This document shows, piece after piece, positions 7,584-30,286 of a stretch of 64,000 nucleotides of DNA. The stretch's first letter is position 1. The number at the start of each line of letters is the position of its first letter. The DNA is taken from positions 1,612,001 through 1,676,000 of the forward strand of contig NZ_LT629786.1 of NCBI RefSeq assembly GCF_900105675.1, given 5' to 3'. The notes beneath the pieces are model-generated. The model was not told the origin of the DNA. It did not search any database and saw nothing but the letters and a program-made list of their open reading frames with translations. The position numbers and the translations under genes were made by a program. This DNA comes from Pseudomonas synxantha (GTDB lineage: Bacteria; Pseudomonadota; Gammaproteobacteria; Pseudomonadales; Pseudomonadaceae).

Positions 7584-7913
7584 ATGGACCTGACCGCTGT
7601 TCCATTTGGTACGACCGATTGGTCAACTGTCGAACCTATCGAGTACGTTGGACAGACGGGTACCGCCTATTGGCGAACTTGCCAGTTTGGTTCGACACGT
7701 GTGCGAATGGTTGAATACAGTCCTGGCTATCTTGCCGATCACTGGTGCTGGAGAGGTCATATCCTGTTGTGCTTGGAAGGCGAGTTGCACACGGAGTTGG
7801 AGGATGGTCGTCAGTTCACACTCACCGCGGGGATGAGCTATCAGGTGGGCAGCAACGCTGAGGGGCACCGATCTTCCAGCACCTGTGGGGCGAAGTTGTT
7901 CGTCGTGGATTAA
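7584..7913 (+). CDS. DHCW-motif cupin fold protein
   Basis: A 109-residue single-domain cupin of the DHCW family, named for the conserved motif present here in YLADHWCWRGHILLCLEGEL (about residues 48-67). The first half carries PFGTTDWSTVEPIEY and the end RSSSTCGAKLFVVD, both typical of the family. The start at 7584 follows a GAGG ribosome site; an in-frame upstream extension lacks one. The biochemical function of the family is not established; the metal ligands of classical cupins are only partly kept. It stands alone between the prophage junction and a gene-poor stretch. Confidence 0.8.
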   Translation: MDLTAVPFGTTDWSTVEPIEYVGQTGTAYWRTCQFGSTRVRMVEYSPGYLADHWCWRGHILLCLEGELHTELEDGRQFTLTAGMSYQVGSNAEGHRSSSTCGAKLFVVD

Positions 7914-8787: not shown

Positions 8788-9306
8788 ATGTCGGTCTACA
8801 CAGTTACCATCCCCTGCTTTGCGCAAATGCTACGAGCGTTATTGTCTCTTTTGTCTAAGGGCGAGGCCGCTGCATTCGAGCGCGGTTATGATCCGCAAAC
8901 TCTACTCGAAGCTCGACTTGCACCGGATATGCATGATCTAGCCCGGCAAATTCAGTACGCTTGCACTCAAGCCCTTGAGGCTGTTCAGCGACTTACACAG
9001 CAGCCAGTGCGAACACTCACTCCTCCTGAAAACTTGACCACAGCGAAAGCACTCATTGAACGTACTTTGATAATTCTTGATTCGATGGACCGCGCTCAGA
9101 TAGAGGAAGGGGCAGAGCGTCAAATCGCTATTGAATTGCCAAATGGCATGGTTTTCGATATGACCGGCAGTGAGTATGCTGTGAACTGGGCTATTCCACA
9201 GTTCTACTTTCATCTGGTCACTGCTTACAACATCCTGCGTCATAACGGCGTACCTCTCGGAAAGGCCGATTATGTACAGCACATGTTTGCCTATCTGCGA
9301 AAATAA
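8788..9306 (+). CDS. DUF1993 family protein
   Basis: A 172-residue protein of the DUF1993 family, a DinB-like four-helix fold. It opens MSVYTVTIPCFAQMLRALLSLLSKGEAAA, then has the conserved ARLAPDMHDLARQIQYA region and, near the end, WAIPQFYFHLVTAYNILRHNGVPLGKADY, which is diagnostic. There is no signal peptide. Related DinB-like proteins bind metal through histidines; the His in FHLVTAYNILRH would fit, but the function is unknown. The start follows AAGGAAAAG, a good ribosome site. Confidence 0.85.
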   Translation: MSVYTVTIPCFAQMLRALLSLLSKGEAAAFERGYDPQTLLEARLAPDMHDLARQIQYACTQALEAVQRLTQQPVRTLTPPENLTTAKALIERTLIILDSMDRAQIEEGAERQIAIELPNGMVFDMTGSEYAVNWAIPQFYFHLVTAYNILRHNGVPLGKADYVQHMFAYLRK

Positions 9307-16671: not shown

Positions 16672-16835
16672 TGCGGGCTTTGGCGGCGCCGGACGGCTAA
16701 ATCAGGTTCGATACTGTTTTGAACGCCGCCTGGTCCGTCAATAAGGCGTGACTTGGCGGGCGTGCCTGCCTTCCCATCACTGTTCGCGTGGTGGGCCCGG
16801 CCTGCCACGCTCCTGAATTCCAAGGACCCGCGCCA

Positions 16836-18947
16836 ATGTTGCTGCGTCAACCCCCGTTCCTTTTTGCCGCCCTGACTCTCAGCTCGCTGGTACAGGCCGA
16901 AGGCCTGCAATTGGCGCCGGTCGAAGTCACCACCACTGAGGCCAGCGCTGGCGAAATCGCCCAGGCGCAGCTCAACAGCGTGCCCGGCGGCACCAACTAC
17001 ATCGATATGAGCAGCGTGCAACAGGGGCGTGTCAGCACTAACGAAGATGTGTTCAAGTACCAGGCCGGGGTGTACGCCAAGGCGGCGAATAACGAAGGGG
17101 TGAAGTTATCCATTCGCGGCTCGGGCTTGAACCGCAGCCCGGGTGCCCATGGCTCCGGCCTGTATGAGATGTTCGACGGCCTGCCGCTGACTGGCCCCGG
17201 CGGCACGCCCTATGAGCTCAAGGACCCGCTGTGGCAAAGCCGGGTGGAAGTGCTGCGGGGCGCCAATGGGTTCGATCAGGGCGCATTGGCCTTGGGCGGT
17301 TCGGTCAATTACGTCACCCACACCGGCTACGACGCGCCCAAGCTGCAAATGCGCTACGAGGTCGGCAGTCGCGGCTACGCCCAGCGCGAGGTCAGTTCCG
17401 GCCAGGTGCTGGGGGATGCCGACTACTACATCAGCCTTACCGATTCAGAGTCCGACGGCTACCAGCACCAGAGCGCCGGCACCGGCAAGGGCATTGCCGC
17501 CAACTTTGGCTACCGCTTCAACCCGGACCTGGAAACGCGTTTCTACCTGCGCTACCGCGAAACCACCAACGATTCCCCCGGCAAGCTCACGCGCTACCAG
17601 GTCAGCCATGACCCGCGTGCCGCCAACAGCGTGAATGCTGCTCGCGATTCCAAACGCCTGCAACCGGGCTCCACCTGGATCGCCAACAAGACCACCTTGC
17701 AACTGGACGACGCATCAAGGGTCGAGGTCGGGCTGGCCTATCATGACTACCCCATGGACCTGCGCGAAGGCAGCAACCGCCTGAAAGTCGCCTACACCGA
17801 TATCAGCGGCACCCTCAACTACATCCGCCAGGACAGCCTGTTCGGCCATGCCAGCAAAACCACCGTCGGCTTGCGTACCACCCAGGCGATGCCCAACAAT
17901 GGCGCCTCCGAGTACGTACGCACCCCCACTGGCAATACCGCCAGCTACGCCCCCGGCACCAAGACCCGCGACTACAGCTACCTGGGGTCAGACACCGTGC
18001 TGCACATCGGCAACGACCTGGAGCTGGTCCCCGACCTATGGCTCACCACCGGCCTCGCCGCGATCTACACCCGCCGCGAAACCCAGGTGACTTACCCCGA
18101 GGGCCAGGCGCCGCTCAGTCAGCATGACTGGGACTACGCACCGCGCATCGGCCTGCGTTACGACTTCACCCCGCAATTGCAGCTGTACACCAACCTGAGC
18201 CGCTCGGTGGAGCCGCCCCATGCCTGGTCGATGATCTGGGGTTCCAACAAGTACTTCAGCACCGGACCCGCGAATGGGCTGGCACGCGAAGGCGTCAGCC
18301 TGAAGAACCAGACCGCCACCACCCTGGAAATCGGCGGGCGCGGCGAAGCCTGGCTCGGCCAGTGGGACCTGGCCCTCTACCGCTCCGAAGTACGCCACGA
18401 ACTGCTCTCCGTGGAAACCCAGGCCCAGACCTCCACCAGCAATGCCGTTATCGCCGAATCCAACGCCAGCCCCACCGTGCACCAGGGTGTGGAACTGGGC
18501 CTGCTCAGCCCGTTATGGGACGGCGGCCGCAGCGGCAAGCTCGACCTGCGCCAGGCCTACACCTTCAGCGATTTCCACTACCGCGACGATGAGCGTTTCG
18601 GTGACAACACCCTGCCCGGCATCCCCAAGCACTACTACCAGGCGCAGGTGCGCTACAGCCACCCGACGGGTTTCTACACCAGCCTCAACACCGAGCATGC
18701 TTCACGGGTTGCTGTGGACTACGCCAATTCCTACTATGCCGCGGCCTACACTACCTTCGGTGCCACCTTCGGCTACGACGCACCCAAACAGGACTGGCAA
18801 GCCTGGGTCGACTTGCGCAACCTCACCAACCGTCGTTATGCCAATACCGTTACGCCGGGTTACGACGACAAGGGCATGGACGCAGCACGCTCTACCCCTG
18901 CTGATGGACGTGGTGTTTACACCGGTGTGTCTTGGAGTTGGCGTTAA
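16836..18947 (+). CDS. TonB-dependent outer membrane receptor
   Basis: A 703-residue TonB-dependent receptor. After the signal peptide (MLLRQPPFLFAALTLSSLVQA) comes a TonB box-like segment (LQLAPVEVTTTEA). The plug domain follows (VFKYQAGVYAKAANNEGVKLSIRGSGL, then VEVLRGANGFDQGALALGGSVNYVT), and then the 22-strand barrel with many alternating aromatic strands, ending GVYTGVSWSWR. Such receptors take up iron chelates or other large nutrients using energy from TonB. No Fur box was found upstream and no siderophore genes are nearby, so the ligand is unknown. The start at 16836 gives a proper signal peptide; the frame extends to 16788. Confidence 0.9.
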   Translation: MLLRQPPFLFAALTLSSLVQAEGLQLAPVEVTTTEASAGEIAQAQLNSVPGGTNYIDMSSVQQGRVSTNEDVFKYQAGVYAKAANNEGVKLSIRGSGLNRSPGAHGSGLYEMFDGLPLTGPGGTPYELKDPLWQSRVEVLRGANGFDQGALALGGSVNYVTHTGYDAPKLQMRYEVGSRGYAQREVSSGQVLGDADYYISLTDSESDGYQHQSAGTGKGIAANFGYRFNPDLETRFYLRYRETTNDSPGKLTRYQVSHDPRAANSVNAARDSKRLQPGSTWIANKTTLQLDDASRVEVGLAYHDYPMDLREGSNRLKVAYTDISGTLNYIRQDSLFGHASKTTVGLRTTQAMPNNGASEYVRTPTGNTASYAPGTKTRDYSYLGSDTVLHIGNDLELVPDLWLTTGLAAIYTRRETQVTYPEGQAPLSQHDWDYAPRIGLRYDFTPQLQLYTNLSRSVEPPHAWSMIWGSNKYFSTGPANGLAREGVSLKNQTATTLEIGGRGEAWLGQWDLALYRSEVRHELLSVETQAQTSTSNAVIAESNASPTVHQGVELGLLSPLWDGGRSGKLDLRQAYTFSDFHYRDDERFGDNTLPGIPKHYYQAQVRYSHPTGFYTSLNTEHASRVAVDYANSYYAAAYTTFGATFGYDAPKQDWQAWVDLRNLTNRRYANTVTPGYDDKGMDAARSTPADGRGVYTGVSWSWR

Positions 18948-27081: not shown

Positions 27082-27107
27082 AAAACGGCATGCTTGCGTG
27101 CCGTTTT
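27082..27107. terminator. Bidirectional terminator hairpin
   Basis: A perfect 9-bp stem AAAACGGCA/TGCCGTTTT lies between the convergent importer operon and the RiPP-like cluster, with A and T tracts in both directions. It includes the stop codon of the minus-strand hydrolase gene. Confidence 0.8.
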
Positions 27108-27975
27108 ACCTTTGCGCGTCAGTCGTGCAGGCCAGGCTTTGGCGAACCGCATTCAACAGCGTGGGGTTGAACGCGTCGTGTCCGGCCTTGAACAATCGGC
27201 ACTGCAAGGGCACACGCCGACGCAACCAACGCAGGCTTGCCAGGCCAATGGCATCGTTGACACCTTGTATGACCTGGCACACGTGGGTCAATGACAGTGC
27301 CTTATCCTGTTCGGTAAAAAAATACCCGGCTCGGTGGTAGTGCAGTTCCAGGCGAATCGCCCGCAGCGCGACATCATCGATAAACGCTTCCAACGCTTGT
27401 GCGTCGAAGTATTGGCGGTTAGCCCGCAGACCCGCTTTTACCCAAGCCATGGCGGCGAGCCGTTGGTGGTGCAGGTTGGGATGCTCGATGTCACTGCACA
27501 GGTGTCTGAACGAGGTGAAACCCAAGGTTTTCAGGTGTCGCGTCAACGCTCGATGGTAGGCTGCCCTGTTTTCGGGAGAGGGCACGAACAGGGACGCCAA
27601 TACCAGCCGACTTACTCTGGAAGGGTGATGCCAGGCATATTGCAGCGCCAGCCAACTCCCCCAGGAAATACCCAGCAACGCGATTTGGGTAAAACCGAAG
27701 TACTGCCGCAAGGCTTCAATATCTTCAATGACCAGAGCTGTGTTGTTGTCCCGGCATTCGCCATGGGGTGTAGAGCGTCCGCCACCGCGCTGGTCGAACA
27801 AAATGATGTCAAAACGCGCCGAGTCAAAAAAATCCAGATGATGACCGCTGGAACAGCCGCCCGGGCCTCCGTGTAAAAAGAATACGGGTTCGGCGCCGTC
27901 ACAGCCGTGGCGTTCCCAGTACAGGGAGTGACCATCCGCCCTTGGCAAGTAGCCCTGTCGGGGTATTGGCCTCAT
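27106..27975 (-). CDS. Proline iminopeptidase-like alpha/beta hydrolase (S33)
   Basis: A 289-residue alpha/beta hydrolase of the prolyl aminopeptidase family. The oxyanion motif HGGPGG (about 35-40), the family mark DQRGGGRS, the nucleophile elbow GISWG (Ser104), an acid Asp241 in GVNDA and His266 in AGHD make a complete catalytic triad. It is shorter than the usual 310-320 residues. The ATG overlaps the methyltransferase stop (ATGA), so it is the last gene of the YcaO cluster. In a RiPP pathway such an enzyme could trim N-terminal residues. Bottromycin clusters also hold an alpha/beta hydrolase, but an inactive one (BotH), so the comparison is only structural. Confidence 0.85.
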   Translation of the reverse strand: MRPIPRQGYLPRADGHSLYWERHGCDGAEPVFFLHGGPGGCSSGHHLDFFDSARFDIILFDQRGGGRSTPHGECRDNNTALVIEDIEALRQYFGFTQIALLGISWGSWLALQYAWHHPSRVSRLVLASLFVPSPENRAAYHRALTRHLKTLGFTSFRHLCSDIEHPNLHHQRLAAMAWVKAGLRANRQYFDAQALEAFIDDVALRAIRLELHYHRAGYFFTEQDKALSLTHVCQVIQGVNDAIGLASLRWLRRRVPLQCRLFKAGHDAFNPTLLNAVRQSLACTTDAQR

Positions 27976-28868
27976 GGCGAGGGCCGTGTGAGCACATAGC
28001 ATTGGAACAGCTCAAGCCGATTCGGTCGTGAGGCTATACACGATTCCAGAATCAACCCCGATTGTTGCGCAATCCAGGGGACTGCTGGCAGCACCGGAGT
28101 ATGACCAAACACCAGGGCCACGCCCCCCGGGTTGAGGGAAGTGAGCAGGGTACCCAGCAAGGCTTCGGCATCAAGACGGGACATAACTTCTGCATTGAGA
28201 AACCGCAGGATCAATGCGTCGCAGTTTATTGACTCTACGGTTGCATCGGCTTGCCGCAAGTGCACGGGTGAGCTGGCGTACTGGGCGCGGGCATGGTCGA
28301 TCATCGAGCCGCAACGGTCAGAACCCATGTGCCGGCAGTGAGGTAACGCACGTGCCAGATGGGCGATCAGTGCACCCGTGGAGCAGGCGGGGTCGTGTAT
28401 CAAGGCCCCAGGTTTGAGACGGTCACGCAATAGGCGGACGCAGTGTTCTCGAAAGTGCCCTTCGTCTATATCTAACTGCGCGGCGCGTTCATCGTCGCAC
28501 TCCCAGAAGCTCGGCGGGCAGATAAACTCTTTACCGTCCGGGCCCAAGGGCGGGTAGGGAAAGCAGACTTCACTGTGGGCGTATTGCTTGGCCTGGATGA
28601 ATGCCTGTTGTTTTTCCTTCAGGGTGGCGGCTTGAAAAAAAACGCAAAGGCCTTCATGACTCCAATGCAGGTATTCAAGTGGGCCCAGTAACATCCAAGG
28701 TTGCAGGATACTGGTTAACCGATGTTGTCCCTGCCCTGAGGTTGTACGCCGGTTTCGGCCCACCCAGCGCAGGCTACCGGTATTGAGTATGAACAAATGG
28801 GCGAGTCCGAAGCCCTGCGGCTCCACATGACGCTGCCATGTGCAGGGCGAATGGTTGGCAGGGCTCAC
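27972..28868 (-). CDS. SAM-dependent methyltransferase in YcaO cluster
   Basis: A 298-residue class I methyltransferase. Motif I is DPACSTGALIAHL (from about residue 159), followed by GSDRCGSMIDHARAQ and LRQADATVE; the C-terminal half (LLTSLNPGGVALVFGHTPVLP) is the usual Rossmann end. The first 150 residues form a separate helical N-terminal region with PYPPLGPDGKEFICPPSFWECDDERAAQ that I do not recognise and that may bind the substrate peptide. The start is best placed at GTG 28868, giving a four-base GTGA overlap with the YcaO stop. The target of methylation is unknown. Confidence 0.8.
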   Translation of the reverse strand: MSPANHSPCTWQRHVEPQGFGLAHLFILNTGSLRWVGRNRRTTSGQGQHRLTSILQPWMLLGPLEYLHWSHEGLCVFFQAATLKEKQQAFIQAKQYAHSEVCFPYPPLGPDGKEFICPPSFWECDDERAAQLDIDEGHFREHCVRLLRDRLKPGALIHDPACSTGALIAHLARALPHCRHMGSDRCGSMIDHARAQYASSPVHLRQADATVESINCDALILRFLNAEVMSRLDAEALLGTLLTSLNPGGVALVFGHTPVLPAVPWIAQQSGLILESCIASRPNRLELFQCYVLTRPSP

Positions 28869-30106
28869 ACTGCCACCGCCTCGGGCGACCCGCACAAGTC
28901 ACGGCCTCGTCGATGGGGAACGACGATATTGCCGGTGGATACCAGGAAAAATCGCTCAAGCCCGGGTACCACCACATTGACCAGCGCAGTTCCAAGATGG
29001 CTTTTGAACAGCGTGCATACACCGGATACCAGGCCGTGCTTGGCCAGGTCCTTTACCAGATGCGCGATTTGCTCACTCAAAGGCATTGGCTGCGGGCTCC
29101 CTTGCAAGTTCACCCATTCCACGGGTTGCCCCAGCAAATGGTCGGTGTTGAATTGCAGGCACCGTAGCAGGCGGGGGAACTGGGCGAGGTGCCGTTGGGC
29201 ATTGAGCAGGTAAGCGTGCAAAGGAGGTTCGGCCTCCAGTCGTTTCAATTGAGCCAGCTCTGTCAGCGCGCGCCAGGCTGCATGATTGGGCGTCAGCGAG
29301 GTGCCCGTGCCGTATACCGTGGGCATCGCGCAGGGGCTATTGATGAAAGCCAGGCAGGTGGTCGCGCAAAATTCGCTGCTGATATCCAGCAAAATCACTT
29401 CGCCCTTCAATTGCAGGCTGAGCTCGCGCCAGTAGGCTCTCGCATCCGGGCTCAATTGGCTGGGATCGATCCGGCGCAAGCTGTGCGGACGCTGGTAGTA
29501 GAAATGGTTCAGCAGAAACACTGACAAGGCATCACGTTCAATACTCTCGTTCAATGCATGCAGCAGCGCCTCGTCGTAGCTGGCGCCGATGGCTGTTCCA
29601 TTGTTGCTTGAGTAACGCCGCAAGGCGCGCAGATCCGTAGGGTCGTCTTGCAGTGGAAACTCATTGTACCGGGGGCATGTCAGCGCAAGCGGATAGGAGA
29701 ATGGCTGATCGTCAACCAGGCTGCGATAGGTACGACAGACGATACTGCCTTGCTGTTTCTGGACCAGCAGGTTTACTGCATCATCCGACGCAAAGTGCGG
29801 GTGGCTGGCGAAGTAGCTGAACGGTTGGCGGTGAAACGAGGCGGGAGGTAGGTTGTCGCTCAAGTAATGCTCAAGCGCTTCGTATAGCGCGCCTACCTCA
29901 GCTGCTGCCAGGAGACCCTTGCCTGCGCCACGGGCAGCTTCTTTCGAATCTGCCGTCAGCAAGCTGGCTTGCACGCACAGGATATCGGCACCCAGGGTGC
30001 GCAGGTTGGCGCGTAGCCCAAGCTCATCCAGTTGTTTGAGAATCAGTCGACGAGCCTGCTCCAGTGGCAGGCTGCGTTCGGGAGCATTGGCTGAGTGCGT
30101 GTTCAT
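28865..30106 (-). CDS. Stand-alone YcaO-domain enzyme
   Basis: A 413-residue YcaO protein. The first ATP-site region is GKGLLAAAEVGALYEALEHYL (residues about 62-82), and the second NNGTAIGASYDEALLHALNESIERDA (168-193), with acidic residues in the positions that bind ATP-Mg in YcaO enzymes. YcaO proteins use ATP to activate peptide backbone amides, making azolines, thioamides or amidines. Neither an E1-like partner (ThiF/ocin type) nor a TfuA partner is encoded next to it, so macroamidine or partner-free chemistry is more likely than azole formation. The ATG at 30106 has a CAGGAG site. It is the first enzyme gene after the precursor-like peptide. Confidence 0.88.
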   Translation of the reverse strand: MNTHSANAPERSLPLEQARRLILKQLDELGLRANLRTLGADILCVQASLLTADSKEAARGAGKGLLAAAEVGALYEALEHYLSDNLPPASFHRQPFSYFASHPHFASDDAVNLLVQKQQGSIVCRTYRSLVDDQPFSYPLALTCPRYNEFPLQDDPTDLRALRRYSSNNGTAIGASYDEALLHALNESIERDALSVFLLNHFYYQRPHSLRRIDPSQLSPDARAYWRELSLQLKGEVILLDISSEFCATTCLAFINSPCAMPTVYGTGTSLTPNHAAWRALTELAQLKRLEAEPPLHAYLLNAQRHLAQFPRLLRCLQFNTDHLLGQPVEWVNLQGSPQPMPLSEQIAHLVKDLAKHGLVSGVCTLFKSHLGTALVNVVVPGLERFFLVSTGNIVVPHRRGRDLCGSPEAVAV

Positions 30107-30124
30107 GATGCTGACTCCTGAAAA

Positions 30125-30147
30125 GAGGAGAGGCATTGCCTCTCCTC
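30125..30147 (-). terminator. Attenuator hairpin between precursor peptide and YcaO gene
   Basis: On the minus strand GAGGAGAGGCA pairs with TGCCTCTCCTC, a perfect 11-bp inverted repeat with a central base, followed by TTTT. It starts 7 bases after the stop of the 43-residue peptide and ends 18 bases before the YcaO start. A partial terminator here would give more peptide than enzyme, as is common in RiPP operons. Confidence 0.65.
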
Positions 30148-30154
30148 GACTCAC

Positions 30155-30286
30155 TTACTCGGCTTCCAGTTCGGCTTTTTCCGTTTCGGTGAGTTGCAGG
30201 TTGTCGATGAAGTCATCGACCTGGCTCTGTTCCAACTGCTCCATCTCAGCGATTTTATTTGCATTTGCGCTAGCCATATATCCCAT
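30155..30286 (-). CDS. Putative RiPP precursor peptide (43 aa)
   Basis: A 43-residue peptide, too short for standard gene cut-offs, with a GAGAGG ribosome site eight bases before the ATG at 30286. It starts MGYMASANANKIAEMEQLEQ and continues with an acidic amphipathic helix, VDDFIDNLQLTETEKAELEAE. It has no Cys, two Ser (6, 21) and two Thr (33, 35). The acidic helical C-terminal part looks like a leader or follower that enzymes bind; as it sits at the C-terminus, the core may be the small N-terminal part (GYMASANANKI), as in bottromycin, where a short core follows Met1 and a follower comes after. The reverse reading (core at the C-terminus) cannot be excluded. It is followed by an attenuator and YcaO, methyltransferase and peptidase genes. 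Confidence 0.65.
   Translation of the reverse strand: MGYMASANANKIAEMEQLEQSQVDDFIDNLQLTETEKAELEAE

Follow-up and report, generated by a model that had tools for sequence, protein, structure and literature searches.

A core-first RiPP candidate in Pseudomonas synxantha that pairs a stand-alone YcaO with a relative of isonocardicin synthase

Introduction

Isonocardicin synthase (NAT) moves a 3-amino-3-carboxypropyl group from S-adenosylmethionine (SAM) and serves the pathway of nocardicin, a nonribosomal product; its acceptor is a phenol. Here we describe a small gene cluster of Pseudomonas synxantha, located in a stretch of 64,000 nucleotides (contig NZ_LT629786.1, positions 1,612,001 to 1,676,000; hereafter the window), in which a gene of the NAT family lies beside a YcaO gene and a gene for a putative precursor of a ribosomally synthesized and post-translationally modified peptide (RiPP). 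This setting differs from the nonribosomal pathway of NAT itself (structures 8zhu and 8zhv).

Bottromycin (btm/bot) resembles the window cluster in its Met-Gly start, its YcaO and, as predicted here, its N-terminal core, C-terminal follower and attack by a glycine amine (PMC5103208). It has two YcaOs, the amidohydrolase BtmI, a P450, a Met-Gly-Pro start and a peptidase of family M17 that removes Met (PMC5103208), whereas the window cluster has one YcaO, the NAT-family enzyme, an S33 hydrolase and a Met-Gly-Tyr (MGY) start; the bottromycin-type set of two YcaOs, amidohydrolase and P450 was not found in it. Streptamidine (ami) shares a YcaO-made N-terminal amidine (putative here), a hydrolase gene and a core that is not rich in Ser, Thr or Cys, but its HLSATH core lies centrally, between a leader and a follower, and it has the E1-like AmiB, the dehydrogenase AmiE, and Fec and ABC transporters (PMC8442711). 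None of these proteins, nor an HLSATH-type core, is present in the four-gene cluster, whose precursors read MGY. To our knowledge, there is no YcaO in the microcin C pathway. Its likeness lies in MccD, by which an aminocarboxypropyl or aminopropyl group is transferred onto a ribosomal peptide product (PMC10491745); the acceptor there is a phosphate, and NAT appears to be non-homologous to MccD (PMC10491745). We found no NAT-family enzyme paired with a YcaO on a core-first precursor in the open-licence literature searched: no such paper combined "YcaO" with "carboxypropyl", and none from 2025 on combined "nocardicin" with "YcaO".

Results

The cluster lies on the minus strand from 30286 to 27106 of the window and its genes run in the order peptide (43 amino acids), stand-alone YcaO, SAM-binding enzyme and S33 hydrolase. 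Its features are as follows (pN/pS, ratio of non-synonymous to synonymous changes; pLDDT, predicted local distance difference test).

30155..30286, minus strand: precursor peptide gene, 43 amino acids, MGYMASANANKIAEMEQLEQSQVDDFIDNLQLTETEKAELEAE; homologues in 37 loci; pN/pS 0.15 and 0.28
30257..30283, minus strand: predicted core, Gly2 to Asn10; Gly2 in 36/36 and Tyr3 in 35/36 distinct precursors
30158..30256, minus strand: predicted acidic C-terminal follower, residues 11-43, with the motif LQLTExExAEL
30125..30147, minus strand: hairpin between the precursor and YcaO genes, GAGGAGAGGCAATGCCTCTCCTC; z -2.4
28865..30106, minus strand: stand-alone YcaO, 413 amino acids; PF02624 120.9 bits (cut-off 25.7); model pLDDT 88.6; YcaO structures are the top fold matches
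27972..28868, minus strand: NAT-family enzyme, 298 amino acids, GTG start; probable 3-amino-3-carboxypropyl transferase
27106..27975, minus strand: S33 alpha/beta hydrolase, 289 amino acids, prolyl aminopeptidase-like; Abhydrolase_1 82.5 bits; profile to 1azw 191.9 bits; catalytic triad

The original prediction, made from this DNA alone, had described a peptide gene with its own ribosome site followed on the same strand by three enzyme genes that overlap by GTGA and ATGA. The coordinates agree with this arrangement, GAGAGG precedes the ATG of the peptide gene, and both overlaps are present.

The gene set recurs in other Pseudomonas and beyond

We scanned genome contigs for the SAM enzyme with the patterns I[HY]DPACST and L[QRK]P[WT]MLLGP and obtained 32 loci; because the scan selected on these patterns, the corresponding alignment columns are conserved partly by choice. 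A search found the enzyme in 22 of 398 Pseudomonas genomes, all of which fall within the 27 genomes carrying a window-type YcaO. After identical sequences were merged (L052 is identical to L051; L and G numbers denote our loci and genomes), there are 44 distinct NAT copies, 37 of which are beside a YcaO of the window family. It is evident that the gene set recurs: the 37 NAT-YcaO loci comprise 34 in Pseudomonas (the genus of some being taken from that of the window), two in Paraburkholderia and one in Mycobacterium montefiorense, where the order is YcaO-S33-NAT followed by a major facilitator superfamily gene. No further locus was found among 398 genomes of the Paraburkholderia family or 198 genomes of the genus Mycobacterium. 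Over 27 loci, the pairwise distances of NAT agree with those of YcaO (r = 0.976), and there is similar agreement for YcaO and peptide (0.918) and for the third pair (0.894), as expected from joint inheritance of the gene set, and shared species descent alone could explain much of this agreement.

The remaining seven of the 44 NAT copies had no YcaO in the stretch examined. They are found in Streptomyces (L043) and in Bacilli, Legionellaceae and Tenericutes bins (L048-L051, L053 and L054). In L049 (7893-10911), L048, L051 and L054, the NAT gene precedes an alanine racemase-like gene, and L049 additionally has an LD-carboxypeptidase (Pfam was run on L049, the other three being judged by eye). 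A cell-wall role is possible for these relatives.

The precursor is conserved at its N-terminus

All 37 NAT-YcaO loci contain a short frame that begins with Met-Gly, followed by Tyr in 36 loci and by Ile-Tyr in L039, so that the conservation of the peptide beside YcaO, on which the original prediction depended, holds. We compared 36 precursors from 35 loci (L112 and L116 were left out, their peptide being the same as that of L037). Distant precursors were chosen among several small frames, and one search targeted MGY starts, the non-MGY precursor of L039 being already known. The two Paraburkholderia peptides, MGYLICMYSNDY and MGYVMCMYTSDY, support each other, and the Mycobacterium peptide was identified by its MGY start, its strong ribosome site and a hairpin of very high stability. 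In L040, two different precursors (7711-7845 and 9147-9278) lie on either side of the NAT gene, so this enzyme set may serve two peptides. The pN/pS ratio is 0.15 in the four closest loci and 0.28 in 16 loci with 42-amino-acid peptides, and these values indicate that the peptide evolves under purifying selection. Towards the C-terminus, L32, E36, E39 and L40 occur in at least 90% of the 36 precursors, and the mean net charge after residue 12 is about -10. There is no invariant Ser, Thr or Cys (Ser6 in 21/36, Cys in 2/36). Against NCBIfam, the best match of the 36 precursors has an E-value of 0.036, to unrelated enzymes, and no known precursor family was found. Conservation of the N-terminus suggests that the core comes first and the follower second, as in bottromycin, and a core-first RiPP is very likely what the cluster encodes.

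A GC-rich hairpin follows the precursor stop codon with z ≤ -2, determined by dinucleotide shuffles, in 32 of the 37 loci vs 11 of 257 control stretches; L035, L038, L044, L047 and L118 are the loci that miss this threshold. Judged solely by its energy (-19 or lower), the hairpin is found in 35/37 loci vs 60/257 controls. The stem sequences vary among lineages, and the hairpin may act in attenuation or in 3′ protection of the precursor message.

These results also bear on whether the peptide is a substrate at all. The frame could be a chance or regulatory one while the enzymes act on something else, given that non-RiPP roles of YcaO exist in Proteobacteria (PMC8442711) and that eight extra chance MGY frames were found within 2.5 kb of clusters in 47 loci scanned. 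The low pN/pS values, the presence of the peptide in every NAT-YcaO locus, the frequency of the hairpin and a ribosome-site-like stretch ahead of nearly every precursor start all speak against this explanation, and six other YcaO loci yielded a single MGY frame, located within a longer gene. We consider it very improbable.

The SAM enzyme belongs to the isonocardicin synthase family

The SAM-binding enzyme had been called a methyltransferase, a label that probably names the wrong reaction. In both sequence and fold comparison, isonocardicin synthase NAT is the top match by a wide margin, covering residues 10-296, and no other match extends well over the N-terminal domain; any methyltransferase scores far below. 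The enzyme is thus a full-length member of the NAT family by sequence and fold, N-terminal domain included, and probably transfers 3-amino-3-carboxypropyl as its family would predict. A plain methyltransferase in the same RiPP pathway, acting for example on Tyr3 with a shift of +14 Da, is quite unlikely in view of this match; a model of the ApyS-type RiPP methyltransferase was also tried and rejected (15 bits over 48 residues). Given this full-length relationship to isonocardicin synthase, +101 Da rather than +14 Da would be the mass shift to seek first. In G255 (L107), a TGA lies in the NAT frame; the true start probably lies downstream of it, because an open frame spans the same profile range as the window NAT.

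Relatives that lack the NAT gene point to its target. Four loci, L017, L151, L152 and L153 (in G007, G168, G112 and G262), have a window-type YcaO, 80-83% identical to that of G007, and no NAT; in these genomes the NAT profile gives at most 27 bits, to generic methyltransferases. Their precursors start with MGMWCCMYINEF in G007, MGMFCCMYINEF in G168 and MGKYCCMYINEF in G112 and G262, following the pattern MG[MK][WFY]CCMYINEF..., in which Gly2 is kept and MGY is replaced by MGM or MGK. Tyr3 is therefore found in 35/36 precursors with NAT and 0/4 without (P = 5.5×10−5, Fisher's exact test), and as the four loci form one clade, the loss of Tyr3 with NAT counts as one event. A fifth NAT-less genome, G128 (L154), has the YcaO (506 bits) and a 25-residue peptide remnant from 5141 (MSYMLSWLANAV...). 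The four NAT-less operons also carry a pyridoxal phosphate (PLP) gene of the Cys/Met metabolism family, 79.5-88.8% identical to that of L017. PLP enzymes of this type are capable of gamma-substitution, and in these operons the enzyme might attach a comparable aminocarboxypropyl group to the thiol of Cys rather than to Tyr.

The joint absence of NAT and Tyr3 points to Tyr3 as the target. Transfer of the aminocarboxypropyl group to the peptide is probable, and we lean slightly towards Tyr3 as its acceptor. The group could instead go to the amine of Gly2, a side chain of Asn or Trp, or a group made by YcaO. Gly2 is invariant, at 36 of 36 against 35 for Tyr3, and other transferases of the group use amines (PMC10491745), but the four NAT-less loci retain Gly2 and lose Tyr3. 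The nearest characterised relative also acts on a phenol, and the title of its entry 8zhv names nocardicin G as ligand. We give the other sites a slim chance.

The YcaO has no evident partner in the cluster

The top Foldseek match of the YcaO model is the archaeal YcaO 6peu (template modelling score 0.69), and among solved YcaOs MJ1094, of the archaeal branch, comes nearest in sequence (75.8 bits). The window YcaO falls under the curated cut-off of every NCBIfam YcaO model that it matched, including the azoline-type SagD model (63.3 bits vs 219.25) and the McrA-glycine thioamidation model (51.4 bits vs 365). In the YcaO tree, the NAT-linked proteins are not one clade, with long branches that make the deep joins unsure, and the NAT-less L017 YcaO joins the Paraburkholderia NAT loci (100/100). 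The claimed absence of transporter, E1-like and TfuA genes is true within the cluster; the single TfuA match of the genome adjoins another YcaO, outside the window (G000:C1:974466-976002). A third YcaO gene lies at C1:1927942-1928949.

The reaction of this YcaO is the least certain step. Gly2 is invariant and would be N-terminal after loss of Met, and amidine closure onto a free N-terminal amine by YcaO has precedents (PMC5103208, PMC8442711); on this analogy we favour an amidine as the product, tentatively. The enzyme may form a thioamide or an azoline instead, which would fit the presence of TfuA in the genome (though beside another YcaO), the relationship to MJ1094, the sub-threshold match to the thioamidation model and Ser6 in the majority of precursors. 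However, the cluster contains neither a TfuA gene nor a sulfur gene, and the features of azol(in)e-forming (thiazole/oxazole-modified microcin, TOMM) systems were absent: a SagD-type score, an E1-like partner in the cluster, invariant Ser, Thr or Cys, and, judged by eye, the proline-rich C-terminal tail characteristic of azoline-forming YcaOs (PMC8442711). Since the precursors have no invariant Ser, Thr or Cys, an azoline is unlikely as the common reaction; the two products taken together are a doubtful reading, albeit far from improbable.

Four other Pseudomonas YcaO loci, L018 (8133), L019 (reverse, 7983), L020 (7565) and L021 (reverse, 7813), have a short frame before YcaO that starts MG[SKR][KR]R[ST]EI and an ABC-transporter-like gene behind (Pfam run on L018). 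Perhaps they form another RiPP family, again with conservation at the N-terminus.

The S33 hydrolase and the genomic setting

The complete triad claimed for the hydrolase is confirmed: Ser104, Asp241 and His266, assigned by family alignment, are invariant in 18/18 homologues. The enzyme resembles prolyl aminopeptidases in sequence, at 149.5 bits with the equivalog TIGR01249, below its cut-off of 259.75. As a member of the pathway, it is present at 60 bits or more in 26 of the 37 NAT-YcaO loci but is not obligatory, and one further locus, L104 (8594-8755), retains only its last 54 residues. Since S33 is optional, a housekeeping peptidase may substitute elsewhere.

In the window, the cluster is flanked by an ABC operon and a gene for an iron-containing redox enzyme, and many clusters adjoin the end of the nuo operon or a window-type ABC operon. 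Among the loci listed, the cluster has no export or immunity gene as a constant neighbour. The GC content at third codon positions is 0.59-0.67 in the cluster genes vs 0.74-0.84 in the eight neighbours measured, which fits but does not prove a foreign origin. A TTTGACC stretch occurs in many upstream regions; as a shared promoter motif, the strict form TTTGACC-spacer-TATA was rejected, as it fits only 7/25, the window's not among them. An anti-phage system was likewise rejected, PADLOC giving only a local 23.9 bits (mad2) on the SAM-binding domain and 13.6 bits on the hydrolase.

A TonB-dependent receptor gene is beside the cluster in L039-L042, L046, L103 and L106. The window has one at 16824-18938, about 8 kb from the cluster and 64% identical to the cluster-adjacent receptor of L041. 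The idea of a metallophore, combining receptor and aminocarboxypropyl transferase, was dropped: nuoN, the receptor and an AI-2E-type gene are still neighbours in four of five cluster-free stretches (L097-L100; in the fifth, L101, only the receptor was seen), and 24 of 57 relatives searched have the receptor. As this neighbourhood exists also without the cluster, the receptor is not evidence for a metal carrier.

Discussion

The DNA itself shows the gene set and that it recurs, the families of the enzymes, the conserved precursor N-terminus and the hairpin, and on this basis we propose the following scheme. The ribosome would make a leaderless-RiPP precursor of 43 residues, and loss of Met1 would give a core of Gly-Tyr-Met-..., with the acidic C-terminal part as a follower recognised by the enzymes. 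The NAT-family enzyme would put the 3-amino-3-carboxypropyl group of SAM on the phenol oxygen of Tyr3. The YcaO, which has no partner protein in the cluster, would use ATP to activate an amide of the backbone close to the N-terminus, and the free amine of Gly2 would attack it to form an amidine (-18 Da), for which bottromycin and streptamidine are the precedents. S33, where present, would trim the modified peptide, and the hairpin would hold precursor output above enzyme output. The chemical steps, target residues, order and attenuation are inferred, and to the outline with Tyr3, leaving the amidine aside, we assign a probability of about 0.5.

Several points weigh against this scheme. The macrocyclising YcaO of bottromycin works with the amidohydrolase BtmI (PMC5103208) and streptamidine requires the E1-like AmiB (PMC8442711), and no such gene is in the cluster. 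The NAT family is not tied to RiPPs, since no YcaO was found with seven of its 44 copies, and the reaction may have changed within the family. The link between Tyr3 and NAT rests on one NAT-less clade, whose loci differ otherwise too (Cys-Cys in the core and the PLP gene downstream), and L039 has NAT but reads Met-Gly-Ile-Tyr.

The original prediction of a compact RiPP pathway outside the described classes is supported as to the pathway by the presence of the peptide in all 37 NAT-YcaO loci, while its enzyme set is partly revised at the supposed methyltransferase and S33. RiPPs made with YcaO are already known; the pairing with NAT is new in the open-licence literature searched and possibly a new class once the chemistry is shown. 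Such a class in full, core-first with a Tyr O-(3-amino-3-carboxypropyl) ether made by NAT kin, an amidine made by a partnerless YcaO, and release by an S33 enzyme that treats the ring-closed N-terminus somewhat like proline, is unlikely to hold in every part.

If true, the scheme would give the side arm of nocardicin a ribosomal equivalent, spread over at least three genera of bacteria. NAT kin beside ribosomal peptides would offer a gene-encoded way to add an amino-acid arm to tyrosine. The operon, of three or four genes, is small enough for in vitro rebuilding and opens to test peptide alkylation by NAT kin, the formation of an N-terminal amidine by a helper-free YcaO and the reading of a follower by such enzymes.

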